Positions 2,395 to 62,515 of a DNA stretch of 64,000 bases are shown here, one piece after another (the stretch's first letter is position 1; each line of letters starts with the position of its first letter). The position numbers were made by a program, and so were the translations under genes. Under the pieces are notes generated by a model. It was not told where the DNA came from. It saw only the letters and a list, made by a program, of their open reading frames with translations, and did not search any database. Origin of the DNA: an uncultured Bacteroidales bacterium. Its GTDB lineage: Bacteria > Bacteroidota > Bacteroidia > Bacteroidales > F082. The DNA is taken from NCBI GenBank assembly GCA_947303335.1, contig CAMYYB010000002.1, positions 1 through 64,000 on the forward strand, given 5' to 3'.

Positions 2395-2700
2395 TACTTT
2401 TGCACCATTGAATAGCGAAACCCCATCAGGCCACCTATGCTCTTGCAATCCTCTGTATTTCACCACATTACGACACGTCAATAGACTTGCATATCTATAC
2501 AGCAGGATAATTCGCTCATTCACAATACATTACAAGCAAAAACCCTATACCAACGCTATACCAAGTCTATACCAACGCTATAGGCGGGCTGAGGTAACTC
2601 TAAGGTAACTTTAAGGTAACACTGAGATACGTCCGAGATACGTCTCCACTGGGTCTCAGCAGACACCCTAACTACAGGCAGAAAACAGAAAGGGAAAAGA
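2395..2700 (+). repeat. noncoding repeat element, copy 1
   Basis: Contains CTATACCAACG-type tandem units and GGTAACTYTAA tandem units; same order of blocks recurs at about 61221-61530. Confidence 0.6.
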
Positions 2701-2800
2701 TTGACATATCTTGTATTTTACAGCAAAAATGACAAACCATTGCTTTTTTTTCGTAACTTTGCACTCAAATTATTACCGCCAATAAGAAAGACAACATACA

Positions 2801-4240
2801 ATGAAAAGAGTAGAGATCAAGCAAGCCTTGCAGATGCAAGCCTCTGACAATGAGATAACCGTAATGGGCTGGGTGCGTAACAAGCGCGGCAGCAAGAACG
2901 TGGCCTTCATCGCCCTCAACGACGGCTCGACCATCAACAACCTCCAACTGGTCATCGACCTGAACGTCATTCCCGAAGAAAACCTGGCTTTGATGCACGC
3001 CGGTGCCTCGCTTTGGGCTAAGGGCATTTTGGTCGCCTCGCAGGGCAGCGGACAGGCTGTCGAGCTTTCCGTGAAGGAAATCGGCCTGTTCGGTCCCGCC
3101 AATCCTGACGAATACCCGCTGCAACCCAAGAAGCACTCCTTGGAGTTCCTGCGCGACATCGCCCACCTGCGTTTCCGCACCAATACCTTCGGAGCCGTGA
3201 TGCGTCTGCGCCACGCTATGGTGTTCGCCATCCATAAGTTCTTCACTGAGAGAGGCTTCTACAATATCCATACGCCTTTGATTACCGCTTCGGATGCTGA
3301 GGGTGCCGGCGAAATGTTCCAAGTAACCACCCTTGACCTCAACAACATCCCTCGCGACGAGGAAGGCAAGATTGACTACAAGCAGGACTTCTTCGGCAAG
3401 TCGACCAACCTAACCGTGTCGGGTCAGCTGGAGGGTGAGTTGGCGGCAACGGCTTTGGGCAAGATTTACACCTTCGGTCCCACCTTCCGCGCCGAGAACT
3501 CCAACACCACACGCCACTTGGCCGAGTTCTGGATGATTGAGCCCGAAATGGCCTTCTACGACATCACCGACAACATGGACTTGGCCGAAGAGATGTTGAA
3601 ATACTTGATTCAGTACGCTTTGGACAACAACATGGACGACCTCCAGTTCCTCAGCAAGCGCCTGCAGGACGAAGAGAAGGGCAAGAAAGAGGAAGAAAAG
3701 TCGATGGAACTCATCAGCAAGCTGCACTTCGTTTTGGAACACGAGTTTGTCCGCCTGACCTACACCGAGGCCATCGACATCCTGCACAACTCCAACTACA
3801 ACAAGAAGGGCAAGTTCCAGTATCCCGTCAACGGCTGGGGTGTCGACCTTCAGTCGGAGCACGAGCGTTACCTCGTCGAGAAGCACTTCAAGAAGCCTGT
3901 CATCCTGACCGACTACCCGAAGGAAATCAAGGCTTTCTACATGAAGCAGAACGAAGACGGAAAGACTGTCCGCGCTATGGATGTGCTCTTCCCCGGCATC
4001 GGAGAGATTATCGGAGGCTCCGAGCGTGAGACCGACATCAACAAGCTGCTCAACCGTATGCACGAGGTCGGCATTCCTGAGGAATCCATGAACTGGTACT
4101 TGGACAGCCGCCGCTTCGGTTCGGTGCCCCACTCCGGCTACGGACTCGGCTTCGAGCGTCTGCTGCTCTTCATCACCGGAATGACCAACATCCGCGATGT
4201 TATCCCCTTCCCGCGTACACCTAAGAACTGCCTGTACTGA
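2801..4240 (+). CDS. asnS: asparaginyl-tRNA synthetase
   Basis: Class II synthetase with OB-fold N-terminus ([23 protein letters not shown]), [55 protein letters not shown]. Confidence 0.96.
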
Positions 4241-61220: not shown

Positions 61221-61530
61221 TATTTTTGCAATCGCAAACATCTCCTCAGAATGAGACAGGAGAATCCTTGTAACCGTCTGTTTCTCTGCAAAATACACTA
61301 TACAGATAGACTTACTCCTTGATTCCTACCCATAACACACTCATTCACAATCCATTAAAGCATAAAAAACAATAGCAACGCTATACCAACGCTATAGTAA
61401 GCCTATAGCAAACCTATAGGCGCTTTCTGGTAACTTTGAGGTAACTTCGTGATAACTCTGTGATTCCTCCCTGTGGGCAGGAAGAAAACAGCGAGAGAAC
61501 AGGGGGAGAACAGGGGGGAACAGGGGGCAT
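61221..61530 (+). repeat. noncoding repeat element, copy 2
   Basis: Same order of blocks as 2395-2700 (CTCATTCACAATnCATTA, CTATAnCAACG units, GGTAACTTTGA units, GGCAGnAAGAAAACAG). Confidence 0.6.
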
Positions 61531-61837
61531 CCTGTATACTGACTCGGTCATTTTAGTCATTTTAGTCATTAGTCAAAATGATTTGGCGAAATCGGCATAA
61601 AAAACCCGAAAACGATTTTGACCAAAACGACCATAATGACAGCGGTAGTTATAAAAGCCATGATAATCTACTGGATAACAGAGTTTTCCCATCGAGAACA
61701 GGCTCAATCCAAATGACGGCTGCTACAGTTGCTACAGTTGTTACAGTTAGTTTTACAGAGAGAACGGAACTAAAGTCCCACTGTCCCGAGTTCCCCCTTT
61801 GGGACAGCAAGACAGGACAGCCCGCGATAAAATAGGC

Positions 61838-62380: not shown

Positions 62381-62515
62381 GCTTAAGGGCTTGTTGCAGG
62401 GAACTTCGACAACTCTCCAGGTAATCACAAGCAAGTAAAGCAAAGCGCTCACGTGTTTTCGCGTGGGCTTTACTTGTATAGTTGTGATTACCGGCAGTCG
62501 AAGGCCCCCTTAAGC
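62381..62515 (+). ncRNA. candidate structured RNA (long rod of nested helices)
   Basis: Helices GCTTAAGGG/CCCTTAAGC, CTTCGAC/GTCGAAG, GGTAATCACAA/TTGTGATTACC, AAGTAAAGC/GCTTTACTT, CACG/CGTG in register. Confidence 0.5.

Follow-up and report, generated by a model that had tools for sequence, protein, structure and literature searches.

The stretch of DNA analyzed here (the window) comprises positions 1 to 64,000 of contig CAMYYB010000002.1 from an uncultured Bacteroidales bacterium (assembly GCA_947303335.1). On its plus strand, positions 2371–2698 hold an intergenic element of ~300 bp that consists of a promoter, a leader, and a phased array of 11-nucleotide (nt) units. The element is bordered on one side by an open reading frame (ORF) on the minus strand (1258–2334), which from its sequence looks like a putative bifunctional chorismate-pathway enzyme, and on the other side by asnS (2801–4240, plus strand). 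A preliminary description of this DNA had proposed a promoter-led noncoding repeat, and we find the parts in place: a −33 box TTG (2372–2374), a spacer of 20 nt, and a −7 box TACTTTTG (2395–2402) that corresponds to the Bacteroidota motif TAnnTTTG. This promoter call is a consensus match. In an alignment of 20 copies the 5′ limit of the common sequence lies just upstream of the −33 box, and the −7 box is kept across the family with variation in its two middle bases. We found no convincing ORF in the element and no Rfam family over it, in agreement with the noncoding assignment.

The leader (2403–2544) is 142 nt long. RNAfold predicts a stem in the window copy between TGAATAGCGAA (5′ arm, 2409–2419) and TTCGCTCATTCA (3′ arm, 2511–2522; z = −3.0 for the leader), and further motifs lie at 2442 (CTTGCAATCC) and 2515–2532 (CTCATTCACAATACATTA). 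The array follows as 14 consecutive 11-mers in a single register (2545–2698, plus strand). Units 1–4 (2545–2588: CTATACCAACG, CTATACCAAGT, CTATACCAACG, CTATAGGCGGG) are of the CTATACCAACG type, units 5–7 (2589–2621: CTGAGGTAACT, CTAAGGTAACT, TTAAGGTAACA) of the CTAAGGTAACT type, and units 8 and 9 (2622–2643: CTGAGATACGT, CCGAGATACGT) of the CYGAGATACGT type; units 10–14 (2644–2698: CTCCACTGGGT, CTCAGCAGACA, CCCTAACTACA, GGCAGAAAACA, GAAAGGGAAAA) drift in sequence without leaving the register, and the 3′ end of the element is uncertain. The preliminary description had listed separate kinds of tandem repeat; the units exist, but they form one continuous register. Identity at lag 11 is 0.60, compared to at most 0.31 at lags other than 11 or 22. 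None of 2000 shuffles reached the lag-11 score at any lag tested, and lag 11 stays the best lag past the CTATA units.

The proposed sharing of block order with a second locus in the window was confirmed: this copy spans about 61221–61530 on the plus strand, with a −7 box TATTTTTG at 61221–61228 and an 11-nt array at 61370–61530, and has lost the −33 region. As to asnS, a separate promoter-like −7 box lies at 2754–2761 (plus strand) and is conserved in relatives that lack the element; in one of them (G021) asnS is preceded by a short orthologous spacer without the element. We rejected a role of the element as a promoter for downstream genes, since neighboring genes have mixed orientation and asnS carries its own promoter-like box. 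Dispersed in rumen and gut Bacteroidales, this promoter-carrying element changes the spacers of housekeeping genes such as asnS.

Copies, period, and limits of the unit

On further copies in the genome the preliminary description had made its repeat family depend. A DNA search found 22 places, of which 21 can be aligned as real copies, so this claim stands. These copies are short and intergenic; ORFs of 96–108 amino acids (aa) extend into three of them, and none is convincing. Leaders measure 141–143 nt in the 20 measured copies despite widely differing sequence. The copies form two subfamilies, with the window copy as an outlier. Statistics on this genome were computed from retrieved stretches, and the genomes are metagenome-assembled genomes (MAGs). 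At three loci (L054, L056, L058) another repeated promoter-led block (CTATTTTTGCCCCTGCCATTCCGGGAG...) lies downstream of the element.

An IUPAC-coded pattern of the CTATA array matched 15 times in this genome and not once in 296 further Bacteroidota genomes (reversed control: 0), and DNA matching in 23 congeners returned no copies, only two promoter-only chance matches. DNA searches of 40 relatives and a scan of 84,980 genomes with a leader pattern, which found nothing, had suggested a species-specific family. This idea was overturned by scanning the 84,980 genomes with the array pattern CTATASCAANNCTATASCAANNCTATA, which located 57 loci, nearly all in Bacteroidales from herbivore guts. Four of the matches (L176, L185, L191, L192) appear to be chance or coding matches and were excluded from most statistics. 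About 50 loci beyond this genome carry the same array, and most of them share the plan with different leaders: TTG, spacer, TAnCTTTGCA, leader, array. Foreign leaders usually measure 61–75 or 120–140 nt, and TAnnTTTG occurs at most 170 nt upstream in 37 of 58 foreign array sites. Phage records gave two weak partial matches, both outside the 11-nt array, and no element match was found in plasmid and viral-contig collections. The presence of one design across dozens of related species suggests a family of mobile, transcribed elements that has not been described before. This recurrence in other genera, like the constant register and the DUF6266 link described below, had been overlooked by the preliminary description.

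The period is more constant than the sequence of the units. Over 100 nt past the matched pattern, the best lag was 11 (43 loci) or 22 (11 loci) in all 54 loci (z = 47; loci of one species are not independent). For this genome lag 11 was best in 19 of the 21 copies (z = 30), and control windows 1 kb upstream contained codon-type periodicity only. Since the 100-nt stretch may still hold CTATA units, a second test was started past them at most loci and asked about phase. In-register information amounted to 2.71 bits in the foreign set versus a random-phase maximum of 0.46, and to 4.19 bits in this genome versus a maximum of 1.22, with a preference for C at position 1 and CT at positions 10–11. 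Different species have the array phase in common, and the period stays constant while the unit sequence changes. A length and phase fixed at 11 nt across many species, with the sequence changing, suggest that a protein or structure recognizes the spacing and not the sequence. A-form RNA has 11 base pairs per turn, a value that fits an RNA reading and does not prove it.

To what extent sequence is shared around the array can be read from near-identical copies, whose identity ends about 40–50 nt upstream of the −7 box, with mean identity dropping to a background of 0.25–0.3 beyond about 40 nt; as exceptions to this sharp 5′ limit, some few pairs from this genome are alike over a longer stretch. 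Three solo copies of one Prevotella MAG (L173, L202, L181) match only from −41/−53 to +266/272 around the −7 box, with ~90% identity. Two copies that bear a DUF6266 gene (L174 and L205) are common from −38 to about +905, with the match ending at +910/+903 and stop codons at +917/+910, and a solo copy (L184) shares −52 to +262/284 with a DUF6266-bearing one (L201) before the two diverge. Because similarity between copies sets in just upstream of the −33 box and does not extend past the array, we conclude that the element was dispersed as a discrete module. Judging from the match limits of solo and gene-bearing copies, what was copied is apparently the transcription unit itself, whether it includes the gene or not.

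Short leaders are predicted to form a hairpin at about +13 to +56, with arm sequences that differ between species, and 15 of 25 non-redundant short leaders fold better than 95% of mononucleotide shuffles (p < 0.05); some of the shuffles preserve base composition only. For this genome, the leader hairpin TATCTG/CAGATA is paired in 97% of cells, with two-sided change at one of eight pairs. One long stem formed by forward and reverse-complement 11-nt arrays was rejected as a general feature: this stem is clear in several Prevotella copies and not in the window copy, and it reached p ≤ 0.05 against mononucleotide shuffles in 21 of 57 cases.

Association with DUF6266

A gene of the DUF6266 family (PF19781), found in Bacteroidota, lies downstream on the same strand in 17 of the 57 array loci; these foreign arrays run straight into it, whereas we found no DUF6266 gene or trace at the window copy and its 20 siblings. 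Among 149 Bacteroidales genomes, 22 encode a member of the protein family. In the opposite direction, from protein family to array, we collected 26 upstream regions, all outside this genome: lag 11 was best with a score of at least 11 upstream of 8 of these 26 genes (7 genera), compared to 5 of 258 other genes (Fisher p = 1.6e-6). Some of these upstream arrays are built of CCGTATCAAGT, which is close to CTATACCAAGT. Truncated DUF6266 genes also occur, as fragments at L204 and L212.

The DUF6266 model (mean pLDDT, the predicted local distance difference test score, 86.9) contains N-terminal strands and helices and an Fn3-like domain. We could not assign the protein as a known enzyme: there was no sequence match to a solved structure, and the only fold matches were Fn3-like, over about 100 residues. 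Viral, phage, and plasmid collections yielded no DUF6266 relatives, and the literature searched contains no mention of DUF6266 or of the array unit sequences. The element family offers a testable handle on DUF6266. In another genome (G125), two loci (L250, L257) hold a dispersed cassette of a J-domain-like protein, a (CCGTATCAAGT)n array, DUF6266, a 490-aa DUF6266-like ORF, and an ORF of about 150 aa; at L257 the cassette also holds a small membrane protein.

Interpretation and related arrays

Sequence comparison establishes the family, its architecture, its period and phase, its discrete dispersal into unrelated sites, and its association with DUF6266. We interpret the window locus as a probable solo, non-autonomous copy of a dispersed promoter–leader–array transcription unit that would serve as an RNA or DNA platform, with DUF6266 as a candidate partner, and put the probability of this reading at slightly better than even (about 0.55). 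The element promoter would yield an RNA, and the array would act as a cooperative binding platform for a protein that reads every 11 nt, for which DUF6266 is the prime candidate. DUF6266-bearing copies, which extend over about 950 bp from promoter to stop codon, may be the fuller form, and solo copies would spread by machinery supplied in trans. The preliminary description had offered a transcribed RNA and a nonautonomous mobile element as alternatives; both remain viable and are mutually compatible.

Several observations weigh against this interpretation. Both DUF6266 genes of this genome are preceded by 11-nt arrays of other units, not CTATA, and the predicted fold of DUF6266 is not obviously that of a nucleic-acid enzyme. 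The TATCTG/CAGATA hairpin of the sibling copies is missing from the window copy (the stem predicted there by RNAfold is another one), and over the full length, folding exceeds that of shuffles only slightly on average. No terminal inverted repeats were found at the ends of the window element or in common to the clean Prevotella pair (one end-straddling inverted pair in L202 was not found in L173), no target-site duplication was seen at the ends of recent pairs, the empty site in relatives being too diverged, and no transposase was found with the element.

The solo-copy reading may be extended to a new class of bacterial mobile transcription unit, whose RNA (or DNA) would carry an 11-nt footprint code and be covered end to end by a partner such as DUF6266 in a nucleocapsid-like manner, and in which gene-less copies would parasitize gene-bearing ones; we consider this version rather unlikely.

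The nearest described element is BrickBuilt of Porphyromonas gingivalis, an intergenic element resembling a miniature inverted-repeat transposable element (MITE) that contains a minisatellite, promoters, and terminal inverted repeats related to insertion sequence (IS) elements (PMC4596501). Both families occur in Bacteroidales with about 20 intergenic copies per genome, and BrickBuilt likewise combines a leader and a tandem array with promoter activity and has no internal transposase (PMC4596501). This likeness, with 21 intergenic copies here, speaks for a MITE with a trapped minisatellite that is moved by an ordinary IS transposase via terminal repeats, and 9-nt (AACTGTAGC)n arrays, which flank copies C7, C12, and C14 in inverted orientation, could be its ends. 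We nonetheless judge this account improbable. BrickBuilt has 23-nt units of one type, and its leader and tail have terminal inverted repeats similar to those of ISPg elements (PMC4596501), whereas the present family has many different 11-nt units in one phase, DUF6266-bearing versions, and no terminal repeats, as seen at the window copy and across the clean Prevotella pair. The 9-nt arrays are missing at many copies, including the window copy, and from 60 relatives, and other genera contain the element without them, so that we rejected them as general element ends. Since terminal inverted repeats were tested and not found, we do not class the element as a MITE, even if its mode of spread may be similar.

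A DNA-level device, with phased 11-bp sites for a DNA-binding protein as in iterons or centromeres and with an incidental promoter, would account for a period near one DNA helical turn and for spacing that is fixed while sequence varies. We doubt this explanation to a similar degree: no replication or partition genes were seen nearby, and most loci have a promoter-like −7 box at a nearly constant spacing from the array, which, together with pairing apparently kept through different leader sequences, makes RNA the better explanation. Least probable is that solo copies are decayed, drift-kept leaders of former DUF6266 genes, inactive on their own, since the existence of a gene-bearing form with the same leader and array and of the truncated genes at L204 and L212 is opposed by the absence of any DUF6266 trace at 21 of 21 copies here, a 3′ limit at the array end shared by near-identical solo copies, and the kept leader length of 141–143 nt. 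On the coding-gene remnant considered in the preliminary description the result is divided: the 21 loci hold no DUF6266 remnant, yet leader and array precede DUF6266 genes in other species.

Another known repeat, the TAACTGA direct repeats of Beggiatoaceae, also occurs in some Bacteroidetes (PMC4679880). These repeats have a fixed 7-nt sequence and lie mostly just before the start codons of many genes; unlike the window family, they have no dispersed promoter-led unit and no drifting register (PMC4679880).

The genome contains further short arrays. The 9-nt (AACTGTAGC)n type has 45 exact matches in this genome, against none in the 59 relatives that were searched, and some of the arrays form inverted pairs; examples lie on contigs C58 (165–1982), C15, and C37, at loci L119–L121, and at 61721–61748 of the window. 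Between the two arrays of one inverted pair lies an ORF of 438 aa that has a Walker-A-like motif and matches no family. A DUF3987/VirE primase as autonomous partner was rejected: the ORF on C58 that is enclosed by inverted 9-nt arrays matches nothing in Pfam or NCBIfam, and the four DUF3987 loci contain no more than one short 11-nt repeat. Arrays of 8, 9, and 11 nt (GTGTCAAA, GGTCATTT, GTTAGACTTAG, AAATCAGGTTC) at L121 (5997–8010), L122 (9641–9992), and L125 (4199–5571) surround accessory-type ORFs, which suggests that this genome has a broader range of array modules. Finally, an imperfect inverted repeat (CTCCAGGTAATCACAA / TTGTGATTACCGGCAG) lies at 62415–62497 of the window, in the spacer before the last gene.
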